A stretch of DNA of 64,000 nucleotides from Pseudomonadota bacterium. GTDB taxonomy: Bacteria > Pseudomonadota > Alphaproteobacteria > GCA-2746255. Numbering within the stretch: the stretch's first letter is position 1; every line of letters begins with the position of its first letter. Positions 32,272 to 51,209 of the stretch are shown here, piece by piece. The notes under the pieces were generated by a model that ran no database searches, was not told the origin of the DNA, and was given only the letters and a program-made list of their open reading frames with translations. The stretch spans positions 124,001 to 188,000 of the forward strand of contig JBFMHN010000004.1 in the NCBI GenBank assembly GCA_040752895.1, read 5' to 3'. Made by a program: the position numbers and the translations under genes.

Positions 32272-32348
32272 GGGCCCGTAGTTCAGCTGGTTAGAACCGG
32301 CCGCTCATAACGGTCATGTCGCAGGTTCGAGTCCTGCCGGGCCCACCA
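32272..32348 (+). tRNA. tRNA with CAU anticodon, probably tRNA-Ile2
   Basis: A complete 77-base cloverleaf with encoded CCA. The acceptor stem GGGCCCG (32272-32278) pairs with CGGGCCC (32338-32344), the anticodon arm is CCGCTCATAACGG and the T arm has GGTTCGAGTCC. The CAU anticodon with a Ile2-like stem, directly after rpoD, points to the lysidine-modified tRNA-Ile rather than tRNA-Met; base modification cannot be seen. Foreign DNA begins right after its 3' end. Confidence 0.9.
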
Positions 32349-32393: not shown

Positions 32394-32433
32394 GGGGCGG
32401 AGTTCAGAGATATGGGGCGGAGTTCAGAGATAT
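32394..32433 (+). repeat. Perfect 20-base tandem repeat
   Basis: The 20-mer GGGGCGGAGTTCAGAGATAT occurs twice head to tail (32394-32413, 32414-32433) without mismatch. It lies between the tRNA end and the transposase remnant, and may be a relic of element ends or target duplication. Confidence 0.95.
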
Positions 32434-32440
32434 AAAGACC

Positions 32441-32575
32441 CTGCAGAAATTCGCCACCACCCATGCCTCGTTCCACAATCACTTCAACCAAGCCCGCTAC
32501 CTAAACCGCCGCAATATCTTCAAACAGAACAGCGCTACCGCGCTCGCCGAGTGGCGTCAATCACGAGCAGTGTGA
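32441..32575 (+). mobile_element. Transposase C-terminal remnant (IS6-like DDE family)
   Basis: An open 44-codon segment ends in TGA 32573-32575 and encodes a transposase-like tail: HNHFNQARYLNRRNIFKQN followed by ALAEWRQ. This resembles the C-terminal end of IS6/IS26-type or related DDE transposases. No start, no catalytic DDE residues and no full inverted repeats remain, so it is a dead fragment. A second, different remnant in the same orientation is at 40579-40740; together they bracket the metal-efflux genes. Confidence 0.65.
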
Positions 32576-32635
32576 GCCAAAGTGATGGCGGAGGATGGCT
32601 TGAATGCTTTTGCTTGTAATGGTAGCGTTCATGCC

Positions 32636-33019
32636 ATGTTTGCCGTGGCACTCAAACACCTGTTTCTTGCTTTGGCCGTGCTCGCCTTCTTCGGCAGTGC
32701 GACGACGCAGGCGATGTTGTTTTCACATGCGATGGGCATGTCGTCGACCGCAGATGGTATGATGGTGGCAGGCGACTGCGACCAGATGGACATGATGGGA
32801 TCCAAGAGCGCTATCAACAAGTCGATGCCGTGCAAGTCCATGAGCTTGGATTGCCTGCAACTGATAGCATGCTCCGGGTCCACAGTGAATCTTGCGGCAA
32901 ACTCCTATGCGGTCTCCGAGCCTGTCGCATACGGCGCTGTGAACTATTGGCCCCCCTCTGTGATGGGAATGGGCTTTTCCGTCCCGCCTGACCCTTTCCC
33001 TCCCAAGACCCTTACCTAA
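32636..33019 (+). CDS. Small secreted Met/Cys-rich protein, unrecognised
   Basis: A 127-residue protein starting with a signal peptide (MFAVALKHLFLALAVLAFFG, cleavage near SATTQA). The mature part is rich in Met and Cys (HAMGMSS, CDQMDMMGS, MPCKSMSLDCLQ), a composition seen in periplasmic copper or silver binders. I do not recognise a family. ATG 32636 is chosen because it puts the signal peptide at the N-terminus; an in-frame GTG at 32582 exists. It is the first gene of the cus-like cluster, so a metal-buffering or delivery role is inferred. Confidence 0.7.
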   Translation: MFAVALKHLFLALAVLAFFGSATTQAMLFSHAMGMSSTADGMMVAGDCDQMDMMGSKSAINKSMPCKSMSLDCLQLIACSGSTVNLAANSYAVSEPVAYGAVNYWPPSVMGMGFSVPPDPFPPKTLT

Positions 33020-33186
33020 AAGCCCGGCCGCGCGCCACGTGCGCGTGTGCCCATTCCGCTTCACGGATAACCGACACGCGTACGCGTTGTCTTCTCCGCG
33101 AGGGGATCACCAATGCTTGGGTTGTCGCCGCTCTCGAATGGAACGCCATAGAAAGGCTCCGTTGTGCGGCTCAGAGGGAAAATGTC

Positions 33187-33645
33187 GTGTCACTCAATCG
33201 TACAGCCCCGCTTGCGCGGGGAGCTATCGTCACGCTCTTGCTTGTCATTGCGGGCTCTCTTGCCCTTGGAGGCTGCAAGCCGTCGTCCGCGCCCAAATCC
33301 AGTTCCGAAGGCGCGAGCTACCAGTTCGAGCTTGTGGGCGCGCCGCAAAAAACCGCACCAGGAATACGCGTTGTGTCGGTGCGATTGGTGCACCTGCCCG
33401 ACAAGAAGCCCGTGCCAGATGCCGTTATCTTCGAAACCAGGGCAGACATGGGCCCCGATGGCATGGTCGCGATGACCGCACCTGTCAGGGCGTTGCCTGA
33501 ACCCGAGCCGGGCATTTACCCGTTCGAGATCGAATTCGGACCGGTGTGGAACCGACCGGGCGACTGGGCGCTCTTACTCGCCGCAAAAGTTCAAGGCGAG
33601 ACGGAGACCGTCCGTGGCAGCGTGACCGTTAATCTCGAGCCGTGA
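33187..33645 (+). CDS. YtkA-like domain lipoprotein
   Basis: A 152-residue protein with a lipoprotein signal peptide ending at Cys30 (LALGGC). The following beta-rich domain (YQFELVGAPQKTAPGIRVVS, RADMGPDGMVAMTAPVRAL, PGDWALLLAAKVQG) matches YtkA-like/FixH-like periplasmic domains often found beside RND metal pumps. Start is GTG 33187 with GAGGGA upstream. The outer-membrane channel gene starts 1 base after its stop, so the two are translationally coupled. Likely a periplasmic accessory of the pump; the ligand is unknown. Confidence 0.78.
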   Translation: MSLNRTAPLARGAIVTLLLVIAGSLALGGCKPSSAPKSSSEGASYQFELVGAPQKTAPGIRVVSVRLVHLPDKKPVPDAVIFETRADMGPDGMVAMTAPVRALPEPEPGIYPFEIEFGPVWNRPGDWALLLAAKVQGETETVRGSVTVNLEP

Positions 33646-33646
33646 C

Positions 33647-35062
33647 ATGTCTGGTCAATCGAACAAAACTTCCGCCGCGCAGACGCGCCGGCGAGTCTTG
33701 CAACGGGCTATGCTCCACTTCTCGGTGCGAAGCCTGGGCAAGCTCATCTGTAATATGCTGCTCGCTCTAACGGTGGCGTGTGGGACCGCTGTAACGGCAA
33801 CGGCCAAGGACAATCTCTTTGCTGGCGCGCAGACTCTCGAGCTGGAGCAACTCATTGAGCTTGTGCAAGCGCGAAACGCGGATCTTGAAGCCGCACGCGC
33901 AGGGGCGGAGGAGGCAGCAACTCGCATCAAGTCTGCGGGAGCTCTCGAAGATCCCATGCTTAGCTACAAGCTCGCCCCGGCCACGATCGGCTCGCGAGAA
34001 ATCGGTACAAGGCAAGGCGTCGAGGTTTCGCAGACTCTGCCGTGGCCGGGCACACTCCACGCGCGCGAAGCAAAGGCTAAGGCAGAAGCTGAGGCTGCAC
34101 AGAACGACACAAGCATGCGCACACTCGAAGTGGTCTCCGATGCCAAAGCAGCCTTTGCTGAGTGGGTATTCATATACGCGGCGCTGAAGATCAACCGTCA
34201 GCACCAAATCCATCTCGGGGACCTGGAAGCGGCGGCGGAAAGAAGTTACGCAACCGGTGTCGGGCGCCAACAGGATGCGCTCAAGGCAAGCCTCGAGCTC
34301 GCCCGCGTGGAGAATGAGGCGCTTGGATTAGAGAGCCAGCGCCGCATGGTCCAGGCCCGGATTAATGCGCTATTGAACCGTGCTCCCGTTGCCGAGCTGC
34401 CCGAACCGACGCCTTTCCGTTTGCTCACACGACTTCCTCCGCTCGATCACCTCGGAACTATGGCGATGGCGCGCCATCCCGAGTTGAAGGGGCTTGAAGC
34501 CACGCTCGATTCGACCGAAGCGGTGGTCGCTTTGGCTAGGAAGGCGTTCTATCCAGATCTCAGTGTACAGGCTGGTTACGACGAGATGTGGGACGCCAAG
34601 GAAATGCGGCCGAGCGTTGGCATCTCGTTCAATGTGCCTCTCCATTGGGAGCGGCGCGAAGCAGAGCTTGCCAGTGCACGCGCCGCGCAACGACGTGCCG
34701 AATGGAAGGTTGCCGATCGACGCGCGACACTTCTGGCGGCCGTGGCTGAGGCCTATGCGAGTGTGGATCAGGCCGCGCGATCCATTGCTTTGTATAAGGA
34801 GAGGCTCCTGCCATTGGCGGACGCTGCCGTGTTGGCCGCGCTCGCCGATTACCGCCTGGGGACAGGCGGCTTTTCCTCGGTTATCGACGCGGAGCGCAGC
34901 AAGCTCGATCAGCAACTGAGCCTCGAGCGCGCCATAGCGGATCAATACCGGAGCCTCGCAGCCTTGGAGCAGGCGATCGGCGGACCGCTTGTCGAAGCGG
35001 ACTCCGAGGTTGGTTCTCCTGCCAGTAATGGCGCAATCGACCATCGGGAGTATCGCCCATGA
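33647..35062 (+). CDS. Outer membrane efflux protein (TolC/CusC type)
   Basis: A 471-residue TolC-family channel. After a signal-like hydrophobic stretch (residues about 30-47) come the two OEP repeats: LEQLIELVQARNADLEAARA in the first, DHLGTMAMARHPELKGLEA in the second, with long helical segments. It forms the outer-membrane exit of the pump encoded by the next two genes. Its stop overlaps the ATG of the fusion-protein gene (ATGA 35059-35062). The long N-terminus suggests the true start could be an internal ATG near 33752. Confidence 0.9.
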   Translation: MSGQSNKTSAAQTRRRVLQRAMLHFSVRSLGKLICNMLLALTVACGTAVTATAKDNLFAGAQTLELEQLIELVQARNADLEAARAGAEEAATRIKSAGALEDPMLSYKLAPATIGSREIGTRQGVEVSQTLPWPGTLHAREAKAKAEAEAAQNDTSMRTLEVVSDAKAAFAEWVFIYAALKINRQHQIHLGDLEAAAERSYATGVGRQQDALKASLELARVENEALGLESQRRMVQARINALLNRAPVAELPEPTPFRLLTRLPPLDHLGTMAMARHPELKGLEATLDSTEAVVALARKAFYPDLSVQAGYDEMWDAKEMRPSVGISFNVPLHWERREAELASARAAQRRAEWKVADRRATLLAAVAEAYASVDQAARSIALYKERLLPLADAAVLAALADYRLGTGGFSSVIDAERSKLDQQLSLERAIADQYRSLAALEQAIGGPLVEADSEVGSPASNGAIDHREYRP

Positions 35063-36492
35063 CAATAACCTTGCGCGGCGGGCTTCGTCGTTTCCTACAC
35101 TTGATTGCGGCTGGTTTAGCGATTGCTGCCGTTGGCGGCGCTCCTGTTATCGCCGGCGACAAGACGGAGAATCCTGCGCAACGGCAGGAGCGGGCACCAC
35201 TCTATTACCAGCATCCTGACGGTAAGCCTGTTTATGCCCTGACGCCGAAGAAGGGCAAGGACGGGCGTGATTTCGTGCCAGTTTACGAGGACGAATCCAC
35301 GTCGGCAGGACCGCCGGCGCAGCAATCCGCGACACCCTCGGCTGACAAGGGGCGGATTCTCTATTACCGCAATCCGATGGGTCTGCCGGACACCTCCCCC
35401 GTGCCGAAGAAAGACTCCATGAGCATGGACTACATCCCGGTCTACGAGAACGAAGTCGCTGAGGTGGGAATCGTTCGTGTTAGTCCCGGCAAGCTGCAGA
35501 TGCTTGGGGTACGGACGGCGCCGGTTGAGATGCATAAAACCCTGGTGCGCAGCGTTCGTGCCACCGGGAGTGTGCAGCTTGACGAACGGACACTCGCCGT
35601 CGTCACCACAAAGATCGGCGGGTGGATCGAGTCGCTTCAGGTCTCTGCTGTGGGCGATGACATTCGGCGTGGTGATCCGCTTCTCCAGATCTACTCGCCT
35701 GAGCTTGTTGCCGCGGAGGAGGAATACCTCGTTGCGTCTCGACTGACAACGTCACACGGCGATGGGGCGCGTGGAAGCGCAGAAGCGCTGACGGCAGCAG
35801 CGGCGCAGCGCTTGCGGGCGTTCGGCGTGCCCGAGAACGAGATCGCACGTTTGAGGCAGACGGGAAAGGCCAGTCGTGCCATTACGGTGCGTGCGCCCAT
35901 CAACGGCATCGTGGTTGAAAAGCCTGCCGTACAGGGCATGCGCGTCGAGTCGGACTCGGTTCTCTACCGATTGGCGGATCTCACGACCGTGTGGCTCGTC
36001 GCACAGGTTCAGGAGCGGGACCTCGGAAAAATTCAGAAAAGGCAGCGCGTGCGTGCGTCTTTCGTGGCGTTTCCCGAGCGCACCTTCGAGGGCATCGTCG
36101 ACTTCGTCTATCCCACACTATCGGCGGAAACGCGAACGGCACGGGTTCGCCTCCTTATGCCTAATCCGGATCTCATGCTTCGCGAGAATATGTATGCAAC
36201 GATCGAGATCGAAACACCTGTCACGTTAGGCAAGAGCCGAATGCTGATTGTACCAGACTCTGCTATCATCGACAGCGGCGCACACCAAATCGTTCTGATC
36301 GATCGTGGTGAAGGACGTTTCGAGCCAAGGGCTGTTCGTCTTGGTGCTCGTGGTGATGGCAACAGGGAGGTGCTCGAGGGACTGAAAGAGGGCCAGCGTG
36401 TCGTCGTTGGTGCGAACTTCCTGATCGACTCGGAAAGCAATCTCCGGGCGGCACTGCAGAGCTTCATGCCCACGACAGGAAACCCCCAATGA
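35059..36492 (+). CDS. cusB: RND membrane fusion protein with two heavy-metal-binding motifs (CusB type)
   Basis: A 477-residue periplasmic adaptor. After an N-terminal hydrophobic segment (14-32) there are two copies of a short heavy-metal-binding domain: LYYQHPDGKPVYALTPKKG at 48-66 and LYYRNPMGLPDTSPVPKKD at 101-119, each ending in a FVPVY/YIPVY motif. Then comes the HlyD-like barrel-sandwich and lipoyl region (LDERTLAVVTTKIGGWIESL) and a beta-barrel. It links pump and channel and probably hands over metal ions. Overlaps both neighbours by ATGA. Confidence 0.92.
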   Translation: MTITLRGGLRRFLHLIAAGLAIAAVGGAPVIAGDKTENPAQRQERAPLYYQHPDGKPVYALTPKKGKDGRDFVPVYEDESTSAGPPAQQSATPSADKGRILYYRNPMGLPDTSPVPKKDSMSMDYIPVYENEVAEVGIVRVSPGKLQMLGVRTAPVEMHKTLVRSVRATGSVQLDERTLAVVTTKIGGWIESLQVSAVGDDIRRGDPLLQIYSPELVAAEEEYLVASRLTTSHGDGARGSAEALTAAAAQRLRAFGVPENEIARLRQTGKASRAITVRAPINGIVVEKPAVQGMRVESDSVLYRLADLTTVWLVAQVQERDLGKIQKRQRVRASFVAFPERTFEGIVDFVYPTLSAETRTARVRLLMPNPDLMLRENMYATIEIETPVTLGKSRMLIVPDSAIIDSGAHQIVLIDRGEGRFEPRAVRLGARGDGNREVLEGLKEGQRVVVGANFLIDSESNLRAALQSFMPTTGNPQ

Positions 36493-39400
36493 TCGCGCGC
36501 GTTATCGAGCTCTCTGTCCGCAATCCGGTTTTGATTGCATTGGGAACACTCGCAATACTGGCCGCTGGCCTTTGGGCACTCCTCAACACGCCGCTCGATG
36601 CCATTCCGGACCTCTCCGACACTCAGGTTATCGTCTACACCGAATATCCTGGTCAGGCGCCCCAGGTGGTCGAGGATCAGGTCACCTATCCCCTGACGAC
36701 GGCGCTCCTTGCGGTGCCGCGCTCGAAGGTCGTGCGTGGCTTCTCGAATTTCGGCGTATCGTTCGTCTACGTCGTGTTTGAAGACGGCACCGATCTCTAC
36801 TGGGCACGCAGCCGCGTGCTCGAATATCTCAACTTCGCCCAGAAACGCCTACCAAGCGGCGTCACGCCGTCGCTCGGTCCGGACGCGACAGGCGTGGGCT
36901 GGGTTTATCAATATATCGTGCAGGGCGTGAACCACTCGCTCGCCGAGCTGCGTAGCCTCCAGGACTGGCTCATTCGCTACCATCTCACCAAAGCGAGCGG
37001 CGTTGCCGAGGTGGCCTCGGTCGGGGGCTTCGAGAAGCAGTATCAGGTGATCGTCGATCCCCGGAAGTTGCAGGCCTATAGCATTCCCCTGTCGCAAGTG
37101 ACCGACGCCGTGCGGATGAGTAACCGCGATGTTGGTGGCCGCACCCTCGAGATGACCGAGACCGAGTATATGGTGCGCGGCCGCGGCTATCTGCGCGGGA
37201 TTGATGACATTGAGCAGATTATGCTCAAGGCTGATCCGGCTAGTGGCACGCCGGTGCTGCTTAAGGATGTTGCCCGCGTCGAGCTTGGCCCGGATGAGCG
37301 GCGCGGCATCACGGAGTTCAATGGCGAGGGCGAAGCAGTCGGCGGCATTGTTGTGAAGCGCAATGGGGCCGACGCGCTGACTACCATCCGGAGCGTGAAG
37401 GAGACGATCAGAGATCTGCAGTCGAGCCTGCCCCAGGGTGTCTCCATAGAACCGGTCTATGATCGATCCGAGCTCATTGGGCGGGCAATCGCCACGCTCA
37501 AGCGAACCCTCGTAGAAGAGAGCCTTATCATCGCCCTTGTCTGTGTGATTTTCCTTTTCCATGTCCGGAGTGCGCTGGTGGCGATCTTGACCCTGCTGCT
37601 CGGAGTCCTGATCACCTTCACCGCTATGCACCTCCTCGGCATCAGCTCGAATATCATGAGCCTCGGCGGCATCGCGATCGCGCTCGGCGCAATGGTCGAT
37701 GCGAGCATCGTCATGATCGAGAATGCGCATAAACATCTCGAACGCTTAGCGCCCGGCGCCTCACGCCGTGCCGCGCTCCTCAGGGCAGCCAAGGAGGTGG
37801 GGCCTTCTCTGTTCTTCAGTCTGCTCGTGATCACCGTTTCCTTCCTGCCGGTCTTTGCGCTTGAAGCGCAGGAGGGCCGCCTCTTCAAGCCGCTCGCCTA
37901 CACCAAGACCTTTGCCATGGCGGGCGGAGCACTACTCTCGGTGATGCTCGTGCCAGTACTCATGGTGGCCTTCATCCGTGGGCATATCCTTCCGGAAGAG
38001 AAGAACCCGCTCAACCGGATCCTCATCCGGCTCTATCGGCCGCTCATCGCCCGCGTTCTGCAAGCGCCGCGCGCCACCGTCGTTCTGGCTGTTATCGTTC
38101 TCCTCCTCACGGTTCTTCCGGTCATGCGCCTCGGCAGCGAATTCATGCCGAATCTGAATGAGGGGACGTTGCTTTACATGCCGGTGACACCTCCGGGAAT
38201 CTCCATCACAAAAGTTGCGGGACTTCTGCAGACCCAGGATCGCATTATCAAATCCTTCCCCGAGGTTCAGTCGGTCTTCGGTAAGGCGGGTCGTGCTGCG
38301 ACGGCCACCGATCCAGCGCCGACCGAGATGATAGAAACGGTCATCAGCCTGAAGCCGGAGAGCGAATGGCGCTCCGGCATGACCCTCGATAAACTGATTG
38401 TCGAAATGGATGACGCGCTCCGCCTTCCCGGCGTGAGCAATGCCTGGACCATGCCGATCAAGGCACGCATCGACATGCTCTCGACTGGGATACGCACACC
38501 GGTCGGTGTCAAGGTGTTCGGCCCGGATCTCAAGGAACTTGAGCGGCTTTCGACGGAGATTGAACATGTCGTGCAGGCGGTGCCCGGGACGACGAGTGCC
38601 TATGCGGAGCGACTCGGCGGTGGTTTCTACCTCGAGATTGCACCAGACCGCGCGGCGTTGGCCCGCTACGGGCTCTCCATGGACGAAGTCCAGAACGTCA
38701 TTGCGACCGCGCTCGGCGGAGAGTCACTCACCACGACGGTCGAAGGGCGGGAGCGCTACAGCGTGATGGTGCGTTACCCTCGCGATTTCCGGAATGACCC
38801 CGAAGCGATCGCAAGCCAGGTGCTTGTGCCCACCACGGGCGGTGCGATGATTTCCCTTGGCCAAGTCGCAGCGATCCGTCTCACTCAGGGTCCCCCGAAC
38901 ATCCGCACCGAGAATGCCCAGCTCGTCGCCTATATCTATGTTGATATGCGTGGCCGGGATATCGGCGGCTTCGTTGCCGATGCCGCCCGAGCAGTCCAGG
39001 GAGAAATCAAACTTCCGCCAGGCTATCGCGTCCAATGGAGCGGCCAGTTCGAGTATCTCGAGCGGGCAAAGGCGCGGCTTGCAATCGTCGTTCCGGTCAC
39101 CTTAGCCATCATCTTTCTTCTGCTCTATCTCAATTTCCGCCGGATGACTGAGGCGCTGATCGTCATGCTTTCCGTGCCATTCGCGCTCGTGGGGGGCGCT
39201 TGGCTCATGTGGCTTCTCGGATACAATCTGAGTGTCGCAGTTGCAGTCGGGTTCATCGCGCTTGCCGGTGTTGCCGCAGAAACGGGCGTGGTGATGCTGA
39301 TCTATCTCACCCACGCGCTTGATGAGGTTAAGGAGCGGTGTGAAAGGGAGGATCGGCCCTTTGGTCCAGCTGACCTTAAGGAAGCGATCATCGTGGGTGC

Positions 39401-39692
39401 CGTCGAACGCGTCCGGCCGAAAATGATGACCGTGACCGCAATCATGGCGGGACTTCTTCCCATTCTATGGAACCATGGCACGGGTTCAGAAGTCATGCGC
39501 CGCATTGCCGTTCCGATGATCGGTGGCATGGTTTCTTCGACCGTGCTAACGCTGCTCGTGATCCCGGCGATCTACGCGCTTGTAAAGCGCAGACAAACGG
39601 TGACGGTAGCGTACAATAAAACACTTGAATCTTCTCAGGGCAAGCAACGAGTGGGTCAGGAAGTCAAAGAGGATGTGTCTGTCGATTCGTAG
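36489..39692 (+). CDS. cusA: Heavy-metal efflux RND pump (CusA type)
   Basis: A 1067-residue inner-membrane proton-driven pump of the HME-RND family. It has the N-terminal IARVIELSVRNPVLI, TM4 motif GGIAIALGAMVDASIVMIEN and late IALAGVAAETGVVMLIY. By alignment with E. coli CusA, the metal-binding methionines in TEMIET and RIDMLSTG are kept, while the first site (PGM in E. coli) is PGI. This fits copper/silver efflux or a related monovalent metal, with altered specificity possible. Last gene of a four-gene coupled unit; no CusRS or CueR regulator is present. Confidence 0.93.
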   Translation: MIARVIELSVRNPVLIALGTLAILAAGLWALLNTPLDAIPDLSDTQVIVYTEYPGQAPQVVEDQVTYPLTTALLAVPRSKVVRGFSNFGVSFVYVVFEDGTDLYWARSRVLEYLNFAQKRLPSGVTPSLGPDATGVGWVYQYIVQGVNHSLAELRSLQDWLIRYHLTKASGVAEVASVGGFEKQYQVIVDPRKLQAYSIPLSQVTDAVRMSNRDVGGRTLEMTETEYMVRGRGYLRGIDDIEQIMLKADPASGTPVLLKDVARVELGPDERRGITEFNGEGEAVGGIVVKRNGADALTTIRSVKETIRDLQSSLPQGVSIEPVYDRSELIGRAIATLKRTLVEESLIIALVCVIFLFHVRSALVAILTLLLGVLITFTAMHLLGISSNIMSLGGIAIALGAMVDASIVMIENAHKHLERLAPGASRRAALLRAAKEVGPSLFFSLLVITVSFLPVFALEAQEGRLFKPLAYTKTFAMAGGALLSVMLVPVLMVAFIRGHILPEEKNPLNRILIRLYRPLIARVLQAPRATVVLAVIVLLLTVLPVMRLGSEFMPNLNEGTLLYMPVTPPGISITKVAGLLQTQDRIIKSFPEVQSVFGKAGRAATATDPAPTEMIETVISLKPESEWRSGMTLDKLIVEMDDALRLPGVSNAWTMPIKARIDMLSTGIRTPVGVKVFGPDLKELERLSTEIEHVVQAVPGTTSAYAERLGGGFYLEIAPDRAALARYGLSMDEVQNVIATALGGESLTTTVEGRERYSVMVRYPRDFRNDPEAIASQVLVPTTGGAMISLGQVAAIRLTQGPPNIRTENAQLVAYIYVDMRGRDIGGFVADAARAVQGEIKLPPGYRVQWSGQFEYLERAKARLAIVVPVTLAIIFLLLYLNFRRMTEALIVMLSVPFALVGGAWLMWLLGYNLSVAVAVGFIALAGVAAETGVVMLIYLTHALDEVKERCEREDRPFGPADLKEAIIVGAVERVRPKMMTVTAIMAGLLPILWNHGTGSEVMRRIAVPMIGGMVSSTVLTLLVIPAIYALVKRRQTVTVAYNKTLESSQGKQRVGQEVKEDVSVDS

Positions 39693-39945
39693 AATTGGAT
39701 TTCAAACCAACGCATCACTGGAGGCGCGGCGCGCTGGACGTGCATTCAGCTTACTTTGTTCGTCATCTCGTGTGTGCTAGTTGGGGGCCCGATGGGTGTA
39801 TAGCGAATCGATACTCACCCTGTACCTTCTGAAAATTCCATCCGCCACTGAAATCTCTGTGGTTCGGGATTTCGATGATGGTTGTATTTTGAGGGCGGAC
39901 TGCGTTCGCGCAGCTGGGTCAGCCATTTTTTCAAGGGGCTAGGCC
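39693..39945. other. Unassigned junction sequence after cusA
   Basis: About 250 bases without a gene I can support. It contains an imperfect inverted repeat, GGGTGTAT ... ATACTCACCC (about 39792-39818). The minus-strand frame reads PLKKWLTQLRERSPP, not a family I recognise; it may be a fragment of a mobile element that truncated nnrS. Confidence 0.4.
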
Positions 39946-40515
39946 CTAAAGCGACGGGTAATGATGATCGAACTTGTCGCCCAGGCGCTGACCGAAAAGG
40001 CCGGTCGAGGCTTGGCCGGCAGCATCTATATGGATCAGAACGTTCGCTACAAGCAGCCCGCCGAGAGCGACGGGCATCAACAGATTGCGCCAGTTGCGAC
40101 CGAATACGATCTCGCGCAGGACGACGAGGAACGAAAGGTCGAGTGCCGCGGTGAGGCCGGGGCCGATGAGGGCCGAGGTAGCCATGGCAGCACGGCCAAG
40201 AACCCAGGTTCCGAATAGAACGATCAAGGGCAAGCCCTGAAGCGGCATGCGGCCCGTCCAATTAGGGATCGCCGTAAGCAGGAAGCCGGCGATGACTCCG
40301 GCGGCAAAGCCGAAGATCATTTCATGGGCATGCCAGGCGGCCGGGCTGAAGGCGGGCGGCATCGGAACCGCGCCCGACATGACCGCAAGCCAGAACGCGA
40401 CGCCGATGAATCCCTAGAAGCCAGCGCCCAGAAAGAACGGGCGGAAGCCCTGGCAAAAAAGTGCCGGTCCGGCGAAGGGGCGATGGCGAGGTGTTCCGGC
40501 GCCTTGCGTGCTCAT
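39946..40515 (-). pseudogene. nnrS: Broken nnrS (NnrS-family membrane protein)
   Basis: Read on the minus strand from ATG 40515, the frame gives an NnrS N-terminus (CQGFRPFFLGAGF) and then a TAG stop (complement of 40414-40416), after which the same frame continues as typical NnrS (FSPAAWHAHEMIFGFAAGVI, then AGFLLTAIPNWTGRMPL). The match ends near residue 185 (GQRLGDKF), followed by unrelated sequence and a stop, so more than half of the usual ~400 residues is missing. NnrS is a heme/copper membrane protein that lowers NO stress. An in-frame stop plus 3' loss marks it as non-functional. Confidence 0.85.
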
Positions 40516-40740: not shown

Positions 40741-41559
40741 TCAGCTATCCCGGCCATCGATCAACGGTGTCGGTTTCGCGAAGGTTTCCAGTTCGGCGAG
40801 CTTGCTCAACCGGATATCGGCGCCGACGACGGATACGCCATAGGGCTTCAGCGTCCCGAATGCGCGGGAAAGGTTTTCCGGGGTCATCCCGAGCAGAGCG
40901 GCAAGCGTCCTTTTGTCGATGGCGAGCGTCAGCGCGCCGGTCGCGCCCTGCGCGGAATGCGCGCTCAACAGGTAGTTCGCTAACCGTTCGACAGACGTGC
41001 GAAGTTTCTGGTTCTTCAGTGTCCGGACCAAAGACCGGTAGGCGGTCGCCTGCTCATGGACCATCGATCGCGCAAAACCGGGATCTCGCTCGAACATGAC
41101 CCGAATGTCTTTCGAGGGGATCAATAGAAGACGTGACCTTTCGGTCGTTCGGGCCGACATCAGATAGGGGGCGTCCTTCAGGGTCGCGGCCGCGATAAAC
41201 GTGGAAACCGGTTGTATGAGTTCGATGGTCGATCTTCGCTCCTTGGTCTCCGCGAACATCTCTACGCAGCCTTCGACAATAACATAGAGAAAATCGGCGG
41301 GTTCCCCTTCCCCGATGAGTTGCACATGCGGCGGGAAACGCTGGAGATAGGCGGCCTGCATAAGCTCGACAAAATTGGCCGCGGCCATCTCGACGAAGAG
41401 CGGCAGGTCGCGAACGGCTTCAATGTCTACGCTGGGCATACCAATTATGTTCGGGTTCTCGACGCCGAAGGACATTCCCATCATCAATTGATAAATGTCA
41501 AGCAAGCGGTTGCGGCTGGGCGCTTCCAGAATTGACATTTTATTTTTACTGTATGACAT
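40741..41559 (-). CDS. Crp/Fnr-family regulator without Fe-S cysteines (NarR-like)
   Basis: A 272-residue regulator: a cyclic-nucleotide-like sensor domain (about 60-165), a dimer helix (ERDPGFARSMVHEQATAYRS) and a C-terminal helix-turn-helix (DKRTLAALLGMTPENLSRAF). The E-x2-SR of the recognition helix matches FNR, predicting TTGAT half-sites. Only one cysteine is present, so it cannot carry the FNR cluster. Divergent from narK, as is narR of Paracoccus pantotrophus, a nitrate/nitrite-responsive regulator; NarR identity is inferred. The 3' end abuts an IS6 remnant. A shorter start at 41538 is possible. Confidence 0.85.
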   Translation of the reverse strand: MSYSKNKMSILEAPSRNRLLDIYQLMMGMSFGVENPNIIGMPSVDIEAVRDLPLFVEMAAANFVELMQAAYLQRFPPHVQLIGEGEPADFLYVIVEGCVEMFAETKERRSTIELIQPVSTFIAAATLKDAPYLMSARTTERSRLLLIPSKDIRVMFERDPGFARSMVHEQATAYRSLVRTLKNQKLRTSVERLANYLLSAHSAQGATGALTLAIDKRTLAALLGMTPENLSRAFGTLKPYGVSVVGADIRLSKLAELETFAKPTPLIDGRDS

Positions 41560-41697
41560 CTTGGGATGTTTGATTTTTTTCTTTCCATAACCAATAAAAA
41601 CCGGGGAAGTATTATTTAAACGAGGAATAAAACGTAATAAATTTTCGTGGTTGTTCTACAGGCCCGGCGATCCGATCGGGGTTGGGGAGAATTCCAC
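41560..41697. promoter_or_regulatory. Divergent control region narR-like / narK
   Basis: A 138-base A/T-rich region that must hold both promoters. I see one FNR-type half-site TTGAT at 41570-41574 but no full TTGAT-N4-ATCAA dyad. Confidence 0.4.
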
Positions 41698-44436
41698 GTG
41701 CATCAGCTTGAAGGCGTTTCCGCTAGCAAACAAAACCGCATGCTCGCGATGAGTACGGTCGCGTTCACGGTGTGTTTCGCGGTCTGGACCATATTCTCGA
41801 TCCTCGGCGTGCAGATCAAAGAGGAGATGGGTCTCAGCGACACCCAGTTCGGGCTGCTCGTCGGCACCCCGATTCTCACCGGATCGCTGAGCAGGATTTT
41901 TCTCGGCATCTGGTCCGACCAGTATGGTGGCCGGATCGTCTATTGCCTGGTCATGATTCTGGCGGCTCTGGCGACCTTCCTGCTGTCGCACGCGACTTCC
42001 TACGAAACGATGCTGCTCGCAGCGCTTGGCGTCGGGCTTGCCGGCGGCGCCTTCGCAGTCGGCATCACCTATGTGTCCAAGTGGTACCCCAGGGAAAAAC
42101 AGGGCACCGCGCTTGGCATATTCGGCGTCGGCAATGTCGGCGCTGCGGTGACCAAATTTCTCGCTCCCTTCGTGATGGTAGCCTTCGGCTGGCCGATGGT
42201 GGCCCAAATCTGGGGGGCCGCGCTGGTTCTCATGGCGGTGGTTTTCTGGTTTACGACCGATGACGATCCCGAACTAAAGGAGAGGCGGGCGAAGGGCATG
42301 AAGCCGCGTAGCATGCGGCTCGAACTCGCGCCGCTCAAGAATCTGCAGGTCTGGCGTTTCTCGCTCTATTATTTCTTCGTCTTCGGGGCGTTTGTCGCTC
42401 TGGCGCTCTGGCTGCCGCGTTATTTGGTCGGTGTCTACGGGCTGGATATCAAGACCGCGGGCATGCTCGCTGTTTTCTACTCAGTTCCGGCAAGTCTGTT
42501 CCGCGCCTATGGCGGCCATCTTTCCGATCGCTATGGCGCCCGGACGATCATGTACTGGACCTTCGGGGTCTCGGTCCTTTGCACCTTCATGCTCTCTTAT
42601 CCGAACACGGATTACGTGATTCACGGCATCCGAGGGCCAATCGCATTTTCAACCAGCATGGGGCTGGTGCCGTTCGTCATGATCATTTTCGTGCTCGGCT
42701 TCTTCATGTCGCTCGGTAAGGCGGCAGTCTATAAGCACATCCCCGTCTATTACCCCAATCATGTGGGTTCCGTCGGCGGGCTGGTCGGCATGATCGGCGG
42801 TCTTGGCGGATTCGTGCTGCCGATCGCCTTTGGTGTCATGAACGATCTTACCGGCGTGTGGACAGGATGCTTCATGCTTTTGTTCGGACTGGTCGCGACC
42901 GCGCTGATCTGGATGCACCTCGCCATTCGGCGGATGGAGCGGACCGCCTTGCCGGACGACATGCCCGATTTGCCTCAGCTGCCGGAGATGAAGGAACTCC
43001 ACAAACCGGAGCATAAAGGTGTGCTGGGCCCTGTTATCGAAGACTGGCGGCCCGACGATAAGGGGTTTTGGGAGACGACCGGAAGGAAGATCGCGCTGCG
43101 CAATCTGTGGATTTCAATCCCGGCGCTGCTGCTTGCCTTTGCGGTCTGGCTGGTATGGAGCGTCGTTGTCGCCAAGCTGCCGTCCATCGGATTTAAATAC
43201 ACCACGGATCAGTTGTTCTGGCTGGCGGCGTTGCCGGGCCTGTCCGGAGCGACACTCAGGATTTTCTACTCCTTCATGGTGCCGATCTTTGGCGGACGCC
43301 TATGGACAACCATGTCATCGGCGTCTCTGCTGATTCCGGCTTTGGGCATTGGCTACGCGGTTCAGGATCCAACGACGCCCTATTTCCTGTTCATCGTGCT
43401 GGCGCTGCTGTGCGGCCTCGGTGGCGGTAATTTTGCCTCCTCCATGGCCAATATCAGTTTCTTCTTTCCGCGGGCGCAGAAGGGCAACGCGTTGGCGCTC
43501 AACGCCGGTCTTGGCAATGTGGGCGTCAGCGTCATGCAATTCGTGGTGCCGCTGGTGATCACCACCAGCGTGTTCGGGGCGATCGGCGGCGAGCCGCAAA
43601 TAACCAGCGCTGGCACCAAGATGTGGATGCAGAACGCGGGCTTCATCTGGGTTCCGTTCCTGCTCATATCAAGCGCTGCAGCCTTTTGGGGCATGAACGA
43701 TCTTGTGTCGGCAAGGGCATCGTTCAAGGAACAGGCGATCATCTTCCAGCGCAAGCACAACTGGATCATGTGCTGGCTCTATACCGGCACCTTCGGTTCC
43801 TTCATCGGGTACTCCGCGGGTTTTCCGTTGCTTGCCAAGACCCAGTTTCCCGAGGTGAATTCCCTGCAATACGTGTTTCTCGGCCCGCTTGTCGGCGCGC
43901 TGTCGCGAGCGGCGACAGGCTGGATTTCGGATAAGTATGGCGGTGCGCGCGTCTCCTTCTGGGTGTTCGTGCTGATGATCGCCGCGGTCGGGGGCGTGCT
44001 CTATTTCCTCGGCATCAAGGAGCAGCCAGGCGCGTTCTGGGGCTTCTTCGCGATGTTCATGGTGCTGTTCATGGCCACCGGTATCGGCAATGCGTCGACC
44101 TTCCAGATGATCCCGGTGATCATGCGTCAGGAGATCAGCCGGCTAATGCCGGGCGGCTCCCCGGAAGAGCGGCTGCGTCAAGCGGAAAAGGAATCCGCTG
44201 CGATCATCGGATTTACATCGGCGATTGCGGCCTACGGCGCCTTCTTCATCCCGAAGTCGTACGGCACCTCCATTGCCGCGACCGGAGGCCCTTCTGCCGC
44301 GCTGTGGGTTTTCATGATCTTCTACGTCAGCTGCGCGCTCATCACCTGGTGCGTCTATTCGCGCCGTGGCGGCGTGCTGCACGAGGTCGAAAGACTGGGC
44401 GAGTGTACGGCCGCCGCCAGCCAGTCCGCGAAATGA
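41698..44436 (+). CDS. narK: Fused NarK1-NarK2 nitrate/nitrite transporter
   Basis: A 912-residue membrane protein made of two complete MFS transporters in tandem (about residues 15-430 and 480-905), about 24 helices. Each half has the NNP nitrate signature (GNVGAAVTKFLAPF in the first, GLGNVGVSVMQFVVPL in the second). In Paracoccus the same fusion joins a proton/nitrate symporter (NarK1) to a nitrate/nitrite antiporter (NarK2). GTG 41698 is chosen because GGGGAGA ends 7 bases before it. The gene leads the nar operon, 13 bases before narG. Confidence 0.94.
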   Translation: MHQLEGVSASKQNRMLAMSTVAFTVCFAVWTIFSILGVQIKEEMGLSDTQFGLLVGTPILTGSLSRIFLGIWSDQYGGRIVYCLVMILAALATFLLSHATSYETMLLAALGVGLAGGAFAVGITYVSKWYPREKQGTALGIFGVGNVGAAVTKFLAPFVMVAFGWPMVAQIWGAALVLMAVVFWFTTDDDPELKERRAKGMKPRSMRLELAPLKNLQVWRFSLYYFFVFGAFVALALWLPRYLVGVYGLDIKTAGMLAVFYSVPASLFRAYGGHLSDRYGARTIMYWTFGVSVLCTFMLSYPNTDYVIHGIRGPIAFSTSMGLVPFVMIIFVLGFFMSLGKAAVYKHIPVYYPNHVGSVGGLVGMIGGLGGFVLPIAFGVMNDLTGVWTGCFMLLFGLVATALIWMHLAIRRMERTALPDDMPDLPQLPEMKELHKPEHKGVLGPVIEDWRPDDKGFWETTGRKIALRNLWISIPALLLAFAVWLVWSVVVAKLPSIGFKYTTDQLFWLAALPGLSGATLRIFYSFMVPIFGGRLWTTMSSASLLIPALGIGYAVQDPTTPYFLFIVLALLCGLGGGNFASSMANISFFFPRAQKGNALALNAGLGNVGVSVMQFVVPLVITTSVFGAIGGEPQITSAGTKMWMQNAGFIWVPFLLISSAAAFWGMNDLVSARASFKEQAIIFQRKHNWIMCWLYTGTFGSFIGYSAGFPLLAKTQFPEVNSLQYVFLGPLVGALSRAATGWISDKYGGARVSFWVFVLMIAAVGGVLYFLGIKEQPGAFWGFFAMFMVLFMATGIGNASTFQMIPVIMRQEISRLMPGGSPEERLRQAEKESAAIIGFTSAIAAYGAFFIPKSYGTSIAATGGPSAALWVFMIFYVSCALITWCVYSRRGGVLHEVERLGECTAAASQSAK

Positions 44437-44449
44437 ATGGGGGTCCGTC

Positions 44450-47400
44450 ATGAGTCATCTGCTCGATCGTTTGCATTTCTTTACCAAGAAGGAAACCGGC
44501 CGCTTCGCCGACGGTCACGGCATCACGACGCGGGAGAATCGGGGCTGGGAGGAGGGCTACCGGCAACGCTGGCAGCACGACAAGATCGTGCGCTCCACCC
44601 ATGGCGCCAACTGCACCGGGTCGTGCTCGTGGAAGATCTACGTTAAGGGTGGGATCGTCACCTGGGAGACCCAGCAGACCGATTATCCGCGTACCCGCCC
44701 GGACCTGCCCAATCATGAGCCCCGCGGTTGCAGCCGCGGAGCGAGCTACAGTTGGTATCTTTATTCCGGCAACCGGGTGAAATACCCGCTGATCCGCTCG
44801 CGGCTGCTCAAGGCGTGGCGCGCGGCGCGCGCCACCAGGACGCCGGTCGCCGCCTGGAAGGCGATCGTCGAAGACCCCGGCACGCGAGCCTCGTGGGTGA
44901 AGATCCGTGGCCATGGCGGCTTCGTCCGCGCGGCCTGGGACGAGGTCACCGAGATCATCGCCGCGGCCAATGCCTACACCGCCAAAACATATGGACCCGA
45001 CCGGGTGATCGGCTTTTCGCCGATCCCAGCCATGTCGATGGTTTCCTATGCGGCGGGCGCTAGATACCTGTCGCTGCTGGGCGGCGTCTGCATGTCGTTC
45101 TACGATTGGTATTGCGATCTGCCGCCGGCGTCCCCGCAGACCTGGGGTGAGCAGACGGACGTGCCGGAATCGGCCGACTGGTACAATTCAGGTTTTCTCA
45201 TGCTGTGGGGCTCGAACGTGCCGCAGACGCGCACGCCGGATGCGCATTTCTATACCGAGGCGCGCTACAAAGGCACCAAGAGCGTAGTCGTTTCGCCCGA
45301 TTACAGCGAGGCCGCGAAATTCTCCGATATGTGGCTGCACCCCAAGCAGGGCACCGATGCGGCCCTTGCCATGGCGCTTGGCCACGTGATCCTGCGCGAG
45401 TTTCATCTCGACCGGCAGGCCGAGTATTTCGAGGATTACTGCCGGCGATACAGCGACATGCCGATGCTGGTCCGGCTGGTGAAGCAGGGCGACCATTACA
45501 TACCCGATCGCTTGGTACGCAGTTCGGACTTCGCGGACGATCTGGGACAGAAGAACAACCCCGACTGGAAGACCGTCGGTATCGATCGCAGCAGCGGCCG
45601 CATCGTCGTGCCGCAGGGTTCCATTGGCTTCCGCTGGGGCGAACAGGGCAAGTGGAACCTGGAGGCGAAGGACGCCGGTAGCGCGGACGTCGAGCTGCAG
45701 ATGTCGCTGATCCAGGATGAAGATCACGACGAAGTCGCGGAAGTCGGGTTCCCTTATTTCGGAAACCGCAAACACGACCATTTCCAGGGAACCGACCACC
45801 CCGACGTGCTGGTCCGTCGCGTGCCTGCCAGATCCGTGACGCTCAAAGACGGCGACGCGCTGGTCGTGACCGTGTTTGACCTGTTTGTCGCGAATTACGG
45901 GCTCGATCGCGGTCTTGGCGGCGAGAACGTCGCCACCTCTTATGACGAGAACGTGCCCTATACGCCGGCCTGGGCGGAACGAATCACCGAAGTGCCGCGC
46001 GATCAGATCATCACGGTGGCGCGCGAGTTCGCGCTGAACGCGGAGAAGACCCACGGCAAGTCCATGGTCATTCTCGGCGCCGGGCTAAACCACTGGTACC
46101 ACATGGATATGAACTACCGCGGTATCATCAATCTGCTGGTCATGTGCGGCTGCGTCGGGCAATCCGGCGGCGGGTGGGCGCATTATGTCGGCCAGGAAAA
46201 ATTGCGGCCGCAGACCGGCTGGCAGCCGCTCGCCTTCGCGCTGGACTGGAACCGGCCGCCCCGGCAGATGAATTCGACGTCATTCTGGTACGCTCACACG
46301 GACCAATGGCGCTATGAGACGCTGGAAGCGTCGGAAATCCTATCGCCTACGGCGCCGGAGGGACCGTGGAACGGCGCGCTCATCGACTTCAACGTGCGCG
46401 CCGAACGCATGGGCTGGCTGCCGTCCGCGCCGCAGCTGCAAACCAACCCGTTGGAGGTCGGCAAGGCCGCGGCTGCCGCCGATGGCGGGCCCGGATCCTA
46501 TGTCGTCGAAGGCCTAAAGTCCGGTGCGCTTCGCCTTTCGTGCGAGGACCCCGACAATCCGGCGAACTGGCCGCGCAACCTGTTCGTCTGGCGGTCGAAC
46601 CTGTTGGGTTCATCGAGCAAGGGGCATGAGTATTTTCTCAAGCATCTTCTCGGCACCTCGCACGGGGTTCAGGGCAAGAATCTGGGCGAAGCCGGGCTAC
46701 AAAAACCGACCGAGGTCACATGGCACGACACGGCACCGGAAGGAAAGCTCGACCTTCTGGTCACGCTCGATTTTCGGATGTCGACCACTTGCGTCTATTC
46801 CGACATCGTTCTGCCGACGGCGACCTGGTATGAGAAAAACGATCTCAATACCTCCGACATGCATCCGTTTATCCATCCGCTGACCGCGGCCGTGGATCCG
46901 GTGTGGGAATGCAAGAGCGATTGGGAAATCTACAAGGCGATCGCCAGGAAGTTCTCCGAGGTCGCGTCGGAGGTGCTCGGCGTTGAAAAAGACGCGGTTC
47001 TGGTGCCGATCCAGCACGACACGCCGGCTGAGCTTGCCCAGCCGCTCGACGTCAAGGACTGGAAGAAAGGGGAAGTTGACCCGATTCCCGGCAAGACGAT
47101 GCCGCAGGTCGCGATCGTCGAGCGCGATTACCCAAACCTATACAAACACTTCACCGCGTTGGGGCCGTTGTTGGAGAAGCTCGGCAATGGCGGCAAGGGG
47201 ATTGCCTGGAACACCGAACACGAGGTCGAGAACCTAAAACGGCTCAACGGCGAAGTAACCGAGGAAGGGCCAACTAAGGGAATGGCCCGAATCGAGACCG
47301 ACATCGACGCGACCGAGGTCATTCTCATGCTGGCGCCGGAGACCAACGGCGAGGTCGCCGTAAAGGCGTGGAAGGCGCTAGGCGAGAAGACGGGTCGCGA

Positions 47401-48196
47401 TCACGTCTGCCTTGCCGCCGGCAAGGAGGACGAGAAGATCCGCTTCCGCGATGTCGTGGCGCAACCGCGCAAGATCATTTCCTCGCCGATCTGGTCCGGG
47501 CTGGAGTCGGAGAAGGTCTGTTACAACGCGGGCTACACCAATGTTCACGAGTTAATCCCGTGGCGAACGCTAACCGGGCGCCAACAGCTTTATCAGGACC
47601 ACCTCTGGATGCGCGCCTTCGGCGAAGGGCTTTGCGTCTATCGTCCGCCAATCGACACGAAGACCGTCAATTCGATCATCGAAGACAAGTCGAACGGCAA
47701 TCTGCAAATCGTGCTCAACTTCATCACGCCGCACCAGAAGTGGGGCATCCATTCCACCTATACCGATAATTTGCTGATGCTCACCCTGTCGCGGGGCGGC
47801 CCGATCGTGTGGATTTCCGAAACCGATGCGGCGAAGGTCGGCATCGCCGACAACGACTGGGTCGAGGCCTACAATTTGAACGGCGCGTTGGTCGCCCGTG
47901 CGGTGGTATCCCAGCGTATCCGCGAAGGAACCCTCTTTATGTATCACGCACAGGAGAAGATCGTGAACGTGCCGGGTTCGGAAGTAACTGGCCAGCGCGG
48001 CGGGATCCATAACTCGGTCACGCGCGCGATACTCAAACCGACCCACATGATTGGCGGCTATGCCCAGCAATCCTATGGCTTCAACTATTACGGGACGGTG
48101 GGGTCGAACCGCGACGAATTCGTCATCGTTCGCAAAGTGGACAAGGTCGATTGGCTTGAAGGCCCGGCCACACACGCGATGGAGGCGGCGCAATGA
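44450..48196 (+). CDS. narG: Respiratory nitrate reductase alpha subunit
   Basis: A 1248-residue Mo-bisMGD subunit reducing nitrate to nitrite on the cytoplasmic face. The FS0 [4Fe-4S] ligands are His51, Cys55, Cys59 and Cys94 (HGANCTGSC ... RGC). The Mo-ligand aspartate region is DWYCDLPPASPQTWGEQTD. A Tat-like remnant at the N-terminus (GRFADGHGITTRENRGWE) is typical of NarG. ATG 44450 gives the family start MSHLLDRLHFF. It overlaps narH by ATGA (48193-48196). Confidence 0.98.
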   Translation: MSHLLDRLHFFTKKETGRFADGHGITTRENRGWEEGYRQRWQHDKIVRSTHGANCTGSCSWKIYVKGGIVTWETQQTDYPRTRPDLPNHEPRGCSRGASYSWYLYSGNRVKYPLIRSRLLKAWRAARATRTPVAAWKAIVEDPGTRASWVKIRGHGGFVRAAWDEVTEIIAAANAYTAKTYGPDRVIGFSPIPAMSMVSYAAGARYLSLLGGVCMSFYDWYCDLPPASPQTWGEQTDVPESADWYNSGFLMLWGSNVPQTRTPDAHFYTEARYKGTKSVVVSPDYSEAAKFSDMWLHPKQGTDAALAMALGHVILREFHLDRQAEYFEDYCRRYSDMPMLVRLVKQGDHYIPDRLVRSSDFADDLGQKNNPDWKTVGIDRSSGRIVVPQGSIGFRWGEQGKWNLEAKDAGSADVELQMSLIQDEDHDEVAEVGFPYFGNRKHDHFQGTDHPDVLVRRVPARSVTLKDGDALVVTVFDLFVANYGLDRGLGGENVATSYDENVPYTPAWAERITEVPRDQIITVAREFALNAEKTHGKSMVILGAGLNHWYHMDMNYRGIINLLVMCGCVGQSGGGWAHYVGQEKLRPQTGWQPLAFALDWNRPPRQMNSTSFWYAHTDQWRYETLEASEILSPTAPEGPWNGALIDFNVRAERMGWLPSAPQLQTNPLEVGKAAAAADGGPGSYVVEGLKSGALRLSCEDPDNPANWPRNLFVWRSNLLGSSSKGHEYFLKHLLGTSHGVQGKNLGEAGLQKPTEVTWHDTAPEGKLDLLVTLDFRMSTTCVYSDIVLPTATWYEKNDLNTSDMHPFIHPLTAAVDPVWECKSDWEIYKAIARKFSEVASEVLGVEKDAVLVPIQHDTPAELAQPLDVKDWKKGEVDPIPGKTMPQVAIVERDYPNLYKHFTALGPLLEKLGNGGKGIAWNTEHEVENLKRLNGEVTEEGPTKGMARIETDIDATEVILMLAPETNGEVAVKAWKALGEKTGRDHVCLAAGKEDEKIRFRDVVAQPRKIISSPIWSGLESEKVCYNAGYTNVHELIPWRTLTGRQQLYQDHLWMRAFGEGLCVYRPPIDTKTVNSIIEDKSNGNLQIVLNFITPHQKWGIHSTYTDNLLMLTLSRGGPIVWISETDAAKVGIADNDWVEAYNLNGALVARAVVSQRIREGTLFMYHAQEKIVNVPGSEVTGQRGGIHNSVTRAILKPTHMIGGYAQQSYGFNYYGTVGSNRDEFVIVRKVDKVDWLEGPATHAMEAAQ

Positions 48197-49719: not shown

Positions 49720-50450
49720 TGATGCGGACGCTTAAGGTGCTGTCGGCGCTTCTGTCCTATCCCGACGACGCGCTCAAAGAGGGAGCGCCCACGCTCCGCG
49801 AGGCAATCGTCGAAGAGGCCCTGCTGCCGGCCCATGCGCAGGAGCGGGTGCTGGAGCTGATCGGGCAGATGGAAGCCCGCGATCTCTACGATCTGCAGGA
49901 GCGCTATATCCTGCTGTTCGACCGCACGCGCTCGCTATCGCTTCATCTTTTCGAACACCTCCATGGAGAAGGACGCGATCGCGGTCAGGCGATGGTCGAT
50001 CTGATGGCGCTTTATCAACGCCACGGGCTGGAAATCAGCGCCAAGGAATTGCCCGACTATCTGCCGCTGTTCCTGGAGTTCCTGTCGATTTTGCCGCTTG
50101 AGGAGGCGCGTGAGACACTGTCGCAGCCGCTTCACGTCATCGCGGCGCTGGGTGAAAGACTGCGCAAGCGGGAAAGCCCGTATGCCGGCGTTTTTGCCGC
50201 GCTACAGGATTTGGCAACGGGCACGCCGGATGATGCCGATCTCAAGGCGCTGATGGATGAGCCCGAGGATGACCCCAACGATCTGGTTGCTCTCGACGCG
50301 AGATGGGAAGCAGAGGCCGTCACCTTCGGTCCCACCGCTCCCGACCCGGCGGGCGGGTGCCCCAGGGTGTCCGACATACTGAAGCAAATGCGCGCCGACC
50401 CGACGCCACCGGATAGCCTGGCGGGAGACGCGCCCCCTGGCACAAACTGA
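49719..50450 (+). CDS. narJ: Nitrate reductase molybdenum cofactor assembly chaperone
   Basis: A 243-residue helical chaperone (MMRTLKVLSALLSYPDDAL, YVLLFDRTRSLSLHLFEHLHGE-type core) that holds NarG until the cofactor and Fe-S centre are inserted. It is not part of the final complex. ATG 49719 overlaps the narH TGA. Confidence 0.95.
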   Translation: MMRTLKVLSALLSYPDDALKEGAPTLREAIVEEALLPAHAQERVLELIGQMEARDLYDLQERYILLFDRTRSLSLHLFEHLHGEGRDRGQAMVDLMALYQRHGLEISAKELPDYLPLFLEFLSILPLEEARETLSQPLHVIAALGERLRKRESPYAGVFAALQDLATGTPDDADLKALMDEPEDDPNDLVALDARWEAEAVTFGPTAPDPAGGCPRVSDILKQMRADPTPPDSLAGDAPPGTN

Positions 50451-50462
50451 GGAGACGATCCG

Positions 50463-51200: not shown

Positions 51201-51209
51201 GACGGGATC

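Follow-up and report, generated by a model that had tools for sequence, protein, structure and literature searches.

A putative CutF-like copper-sensing leader ahead of a ytkA-cusCBA operon in an alphaproteobacterium

Gene content of the cus locus

The window (the whole 64,000-nucleotide stretch of DNA analysed here) comes from a 2.29-Mb alphaproteobacterial genome that is 99.87% complete and encodes three full RND pumps. After a dnaG-rpoD region and a tRNA-Met gene, a run of five genes on the forward strand comprises a small leader ORF, ytkA, cusC, cusB and cusA (Table 1). The leader stop codon is separated from the ytkA start by 167 nt, and the genes from ytkA to cusA lie almost end to end or overlap. 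In an NCBIfam scan the pump scored 1218 bits against TIGR00914 (CusA/CzcA family; cut-off 701). With a CusA/CzcA permease, a CusB-type adaptor and an OEP channel, the system is assigned by its family profiles to the CusCBA type, the substrate metal being putative. By eye, the cusB product carries two N-terminal metal-binding-type repeats (YY..P.G/YYRNPMG). An earlier note on this DNA had described two genes leading a channel-adaptor-pump operon, and that layout was recovered here.

Table 1. Features of the leader-cus region, in window positions
Feature	Position	Strand	Remarks
tRNA-Met(CAT)	32272..32348	+	ARAGORN and Rfam RF00005; boundary between dnaG-rpoD region and cus/nar segment
CutF-like leader ORF (putative)	32636..33019	+	hydrophobic N-terminus, Met-rich middle, C-x6-C-x5-C, C-terminal PPDPFPPKTLT
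Predicted anti-Shine-Dalgarno TTTCCCTC	32995..33002	+	within the leader's C-terminal (P)FPP codons
GC-rich hairpin	33038..33084	+	shortly 3' of leader stop; z = -3.1 for 33030-33084
ytkA Shine-Dalgarno region GAGGGAAA	33174..33181	+	predicted paired with 32995-33002, probability 0.93-1.0
ytkA-like lipoprotein gene	33187..33645	+	PF13115; lipobox LGGC (by eye); Met motif DMGPDGMVAM
cusC-like outer-membrane channel gene	33647..35062	+	PF02321 OEP
cusB-like adaptor gene	35059..36492	+	PF16576
cusA/czcA-family RND pump gene	36489..39692	+	TIGR00914

Since three congeners lack the leader, the segment that carries it may have been acquired. A search of the window for a second copy of the tRNA-Met 3' end, as at an island boundary, found none, and no sigma-70-type promoter was detected for the leader-cus operon. 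Between the tRNA gene and the leader lies the end of an in-frame ORF (32420-32576, + strand), which we take to be integrase/transposase-like; a stretch 81% identical to it is present in the same genome (G000 C1:626571). Downstream, nar genes adjoin the cus operon (41647-52004, + strand), comprising a NarK-like double transporter of 929 aa (MFS), narG, narH, narJ, narI and a PPIase, with a Crp/Fnr-type regulator nearby on the - strand (40741-41559). Two short overlapping frames at 39815-40380 on the - strand resemble what is presumably a broken NnrS-type membrane protein.

Read from the ATG at 32636, the leader has 127 aa with, by direct count, 13 Met and 4 Cys; the start is uncertain, with an in-frame GTG at 32645 and a longest ORF from 32582. 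It has a hydrophobic N-terminus, and AlphaFold2, run on a shallow 10-sequence alignment, gave a confident N-terminal helix (residues 2-31) and little else (mean pLDDT 53). A cleavable Sec signal may be present, and we infer that the protein is exported. No Pfam or NCBIfam model matched it at E up to 1, and 14 members of the leader family likewise had no confident assignment in either database. CopL (NF033807) did not match the window leader; two of the 14 relatives matched it, the best at E 0.0025, below the curated cut-off. The description of this ORF as a secreted Met/Cys-rich protein of no recognised family is thus borne out, its secretion being putative, and no non-metal family turned up that would have spoken against the earlier proposal.

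The leader is shorter than 150 aa and has a PP within its last 15 residues. Across the 14 diverse leaders only C73 and C79 (C-x5-C) and P118, P122 and P123 are invariant. In 48 sequence strings, which include the window leader twice with its two alternative starts, the distance from the last Cys to the PP is 42 in 39 strings and 39-43 in 46, and the PP starts six residues before the C-terminus in 41.

Relatives of the leader and their neighbours

Of 72,556 plasmid records covered by a translated search, 25 carry a leader relative at 34-39% identity, and every one of these bears a Sphingomonad genus name. Scanning genome contigs added 62 loci, with titles nearly all from Sphingomonadales and with the leader nearly always upstream of cus genes. 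Given these numbers, the leader-cus arrangement is more than chance. Downstream of the 62 leaders we found an OEP gene at 59 loci, cusB at 53 and cusA at 49; of the nine loci lacking cusB, eight run out within 2.5 kb, and L076 is the one real exception. A CusF-like match was present at 50 loci, possibly within the C-terminus of CusB. At 59 of the 62 loci a 90-aa Met/Cys/His protein stands downstream of the leader in place of YtkA. In locus L003 (8370-8642) this second gene of Sphingomonad cus operons encodes an unnamed secreted protein ending NCNCDMMQMSADDCMAAMHRGHDKPSAG, with no Pfam family. One plasmid relative (L005) is followed by a transposon and no pump.

A profile matched leaders in 9 of 387 Alphaproteobacteria genomes. 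Four loci (L092, L093, L094 and L095) have the same order as the window, leader-ytkA-cusC-cusB-cusA, and L096 reads leader-cusC-cusB-cusA-cusF. Leaders in 6 of 39 genomes of one family added two ytkA-type operons, L106 and L107, in which leader-ytkA-cusC-cusB was seen in the part of the locus covered. Across the phylum, 13 of 397 genomes matched, two of them seemingly spuriously (486-aa frames, L187 and L188, removed); in the new loci the leader stands directly before CusC, the 90-aa protein or CusB, except in L185, which is of the multicopper-oxidase type. Co-occurrence with pump genes, which the earlier note had left to a genomic survey, is therefore conserved. A second leader-like ORF lies after cusA in L094 (704-1045, - strand), with DPCNSASCGCVATACC and PPNLHPPSARV. 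A different Cys-rich leader type, ending PP and with CCP...C..CP..A.C or similar, precedes ytkA-cusB, ytkA-cusC or fused ytkA-cusB operons (L112-L116, L119, L123, L125, L131).

The window's own genome holds a leader paralogue (contig C5) located 140 nt upstream of a multicopper oxidase gene whose product has a Tat-like N-terminal region; next comes a DUF411 gene. This is the cutF-cutO-cutG layout of Rhodobacter capsulatus, CutG being, we presume, a DUF411-type protein. Profile comparison of window-type leaders with multicopper-oxidase-operon leaders (L091, L097, L108, L109 and L110, the oxidase itself lying outside the L110 stretch covered) gave a probability of 96.5 and an E of 7e-10 over 108 columns. 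Kinship with R. capsulatus CutF was probed indirectly, through these oxidase-type leaders. Another Cys-rich leader-like ORF of the window's genome (L091, 1219-1632, - strand) ends FRPPRARV and lies upstream of a cupredoxin-like gene (431-1117). The leader and multicopper-oxidase region of L091 (G000) looks nearly identical to that of L099 (G045), which is assigned to a different family; recent transfer or contamination would account for this.

CutF is described as a nascent exported copper sensor that depends on a Cys motif, on a proline motif at its C-terminus and on being translated in cis, and that opens a stem-loop concealing the Shine-Dalgarno of the next gene (PMC9973294). Like CutF, the window leader is a small protein, predicted to be exported, with a Cys metal motif and a C-terminal PP (PMC9973294, PMC8456105); it is the first gene of a copper-detoxification operon, and the Shine-Dalgarno that follows is, in the window by prediction, masked (PMC9973294). 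Unlike CutF, which by its original definition has CxxxC, the window leader has C-x6-C-x5-C (PMC9973294), although CutF-like sequences with Cys variants exist (PMC8456105). Its target is a YtkA-CusCBA pump operon, whereas that of CutF is an oxidase; the gap to the next gene is 167 nt, compared to 40 for cutF; and the predicted anti-Shine-Dalgarno sits among the C-terminal codons of the leader itself, whereas that of cutF-cutO is described in the intergenic stem-loop (PMC9973294). In the survey of CutF-like proteins reported there, OEP (CusC) is the commonest downstream neighbour, a type that the window operon fits; YtkA is not mentioned as a neighbour in the text of that survey, and the main text has no occurrence of 'Sphing' (PMC9973294).

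Membership of the DUF2946/CruR family (PF11162) was considered and dropped. Against 22 DUF2946 sequences, those usable out of 25 loci, the profile-profile probability was 2-11; the leader had no Pfam match, and PF11162 had no matches in the window's genome.

Predicted pairing of the leader end with the ytkA Shine-Dalgarno

In predicted folds of the window RNA, the C-terminal codons of the leader pair with the Shine-Dalgarno region of ytkA, and GAC at 32990-32992 contributes three further pairs. When the leader codons were excluded (33020-33215) the Shine-Dalgarno region was mostly unpaired, the pairing appearing only with the leader end included. The predicted pairing would provide an RNA element masking the Shine-Dalgarno of the next gene.

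Compared to synonymous recodings of the leader, which gave a mean pairing of 0.47, the native window sequence reached 0.99, a value attained by none of 200 recodings. The high recoding null arises because proline codons resemble anti-Shine-Dalgarno sequences, poly-proline being naturally complementary to the Shine-Dalgarno. L098 and L099, near-duplicates of L097 and L091, were left out of this test. Pairing of at least 0.5 was predicted for 16 of 20 leaders, which are interrelated, and for five of 26 pairs of ordinary adjacent genes (Mann-Whitney p = 5.5e-5); the set of 20 includes 10 of 20 folded Sphingomonad loci, and the 10 non-Sphingomonad leaders taken by themselves gave p = 0.004. In a hold-out of later-found leaders 5 of 8 reached 0.5, bringing the total to 21 of 28. 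L107, whose leader seems broken at its 3' end, and L110, in which no downstream gene was identified, were dropped from the RNA tests, as were L177 and L184 (long gap or overlap) from the hold-out. Start codons of downstream genes were picked by eye.

Matched leader and Shine-Dalgarno arms paired at -18.9 kcal/mol versus -14.2 kcal/mol for swapped arms, and none of 20,000 permutations was as good, although genome base composition may favour matched pairs. With the six ytkA-type operons alone the test was weaker (388 of 20,000). The leader register that the ytkA Shine-Dalgarno contacts in L092, L093 and L095 is the one used in the window, lying 18-25 nt from where the stop codon ends. Across the 20 folded Sphingomonad loci, the partner of the downstream gene's Shine-Dalgarno is the end of the leader, chiefly its last codons and the stop codon. 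Pairing was intermediate in L019 (0.39) and L186 (0.30), and the leader end was not the predicted partner in L094, L108, L109, L180 and L181 (0.00-0.18, some starts being uncertain); in L094 a local hairpin pairs with the ytkA Shine-Dalgarno instead.

YtkA, CusF and a proposed mechanism

The second gene encodes a 152-aa protein with a GTG start, which matched PF13115 (YtkA) at 39.2 bits, above the gathering cut-off of 25.9, confirming the YtkA-like lipoprotein proposed earlier. The domain occurs in a single copy in the window's genome and was matched in 92 of 387 genomes. At 17 of 30 YtkA loci examined, cus genes lie within 1.5 kb. Under a strict rule a leader is present at 11 of these 17 loci (14 with a laxer length or by profile) and at none of the 13 loci that are not beside cus genes. 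Read by eye, a Met motif, DM(G/A)P..M..M, is present in 15 of the 17 cus-linked copies, L124 and L130 having other Met clusters. It was not seen in the 13 non-cus copies, of which a loose regular expression flagged two; two of these 13 lie at contig edges and are poorly read, and L118 was read from L093, at the same place. Single reading frames in L123, L131 and L124 encode a YtkA domain joined to CusB. A single-sequence AlphaFold2 model was all-beta with seven strands (pLDDT 60.9); Foldseek with this model gave no meaningful match, and phmmer found no PDB sequence match.

The YtkA/CtaK family (PF13115), whose domain the window protein shares, is a lipoprotein family implicated in extracytoplasmic copper handling, namely CuA assembly and copper delivery to cytochrome oxidase in Bacillus (PMC13344008). 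Unlike CtaK, the window protein belongs to a copper-export operon, has the cus-specific Met motif and counts natural CusB fusions among its relatives (PMC13344008). On the strength of the Met motif, the CusB fusions and the copper-delivery role of CtaK/YtkA (PMC13344008), YtkA is the likelier candidate for a CusF-like copper carrier than the leader protein. Our literature search found no paper combining YtkA-like, CusF and copper, or FixH, CusB and efflux, nor did FixH appear among the matches listed when it was paired with CusA or with resistance to copper.

CusF (PF11604) had no matches across the whole window genome (E. coli control positive), so its absence, as the earlier note had it, extends genome-wide and sets this genome apart from E. 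coli. Five of six genomes with ytkA-type leaders lack CusF (G000, G312, G246, G222 and G341) and G425 has two copies, the search omitting G401, the genome of L107. CusF was nevertheless present in 9 of 19 genomes searched alongside YtkA, and leader and CusF coexist in Sphingomonadales. A strict replacement of CusF by YtkA was rejected, since the two share genomes; this coexistence makes YtkA an alternative or an addition to CusF, with which it would share the feeding of Cu(I) to CusB. Of the suggestion that leader and YtkA replace CusF as a capture and transfer pair, what holds is that CusF is absent here and that YtkA is a plausible carrier. A metal-related role for both genes, as predicted, is supported. 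The small protein as half of such a pair fares badly: it is accompanied at 59 of 62 loci by another small protein and not by YtkA, it also heads multicopper-oxidase operons, and its features match a CutF-type nascent-chain copper sensor.

Gene content, conservation, homology to multicopper-oxidase-operon leaders and the predicted RNA pairing with its controls were established directly. With moderate confidence we favour a reading in which the small ORF serves as a CutF-like copper-sensing leader, with ytkA as the first gene under its control; leader export, copper binding, pausing, induction and a carrier function for YtkA are what this reading would entail. The leader would be translated and exported co-translationally. 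In the absence of copper, translation would be completed, the two strands of Table 1 would pair and ytkA would be poorly initiated. Cu(I) on the emerging Cys/Met segment would cause the ribosome to pause at the C-terminal P-F-P-P codons; as these would also be the anti-Shine-Dalgarno strand, the paused ribosome would cover it and free the ytkA start, and the closely packed cusCBA genes would follow. The YtkA-like lipoprotein would then probably pass Cu(I) in the periplasm on to CusB, a task that falls to CusF in E. coli. The small protein probably serves as a short-lived sensor, its own synthesis turning on the pump genes, rather than as a carrier of metal. We suggest more tentatively, as a possibility short of even, that poly-proline pause codons double as anti-Shine-Dalgarno, letting a paused ribosome open the next gene, and that in one lineage the CusF of a copper pump was replaced by a YtkA-type lipoprotein. 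Compared with the published text on CutF, rather than its lists, the predicted novelties are the pause codons as anti-Shine-Dalgarno strand and the YtkA-Cus target (PMC9973294).

The hydrophobic N-terminal segment, the 13 Met and 4 Cys and the nearly constant copper-handling contexts would also suit a true periplasmic copper-binding protein handing Cu(I) to YtkA or CusB, as the earlier note had supposed. We regard this as unlikely, because the leader PP lies at a near-constant distance from the Cys, little structure is predicted, the gene directly downstream varies (YtkA, the 90-aa protein, CusC, CusB or a multicopper oxidase) and the leader's own codons take part in the RNA pairing. Moreover, its relative CutF was undetected in cells and inactive in trans (PMC9973294).

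Two further explanations concern the RNA. Should the pairing arise incidentally from proline codons and a high G+C content, control would lie at transcription only and the ORF would be either a relic or a secreted protein of minor importance; the high recoding null in the window and the several unpaired leaders agree with this, but the failure of every recoding and every permutation of matched arms to do as well, and the strong conservation of Cys and PP at the protein level, make it doubtful, and we give it a small chance. Smaller still, in our estimate, is the chance of a CruR-like device, in which Shine-Dalgarno masking plays no part and Rho-dependent termination within the 167-nt gap depends on a stall that copper either lifts or brings about. 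Like the window leader, for which export is putative, CruR is a short exported leader whose Cys and Pro motifs keep a constant spacing, and it is copper-responsive; the gap is similar in length to that of cruR-bfrG (162 nt), a strong hairpin lies 3' of the leader stop codon, and both proteins are predicted to be poorly structured (PMC9426467). However, the window leader lacks CxxC and RAPP and is unmatched by the DUF2946 profile, the codon test favours Shine-Dalgarno pairing, and CruR lowers an uptake operon with copper, the opposite of what an exporter needs (PMC9426467).

If the CutF-like reading holds, a Cus-type pump would have its copper export controlled in translation through the export of a tiny sensor peptide, by a simple geometry in which the pause codons are the anti-Shine-Dalgarno. 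It would explain many unnamed Met/Cys-rich ORFs before alphaproteobacterial cus operons, and would indicate the YtkA-type domain as an alternative to CusF.
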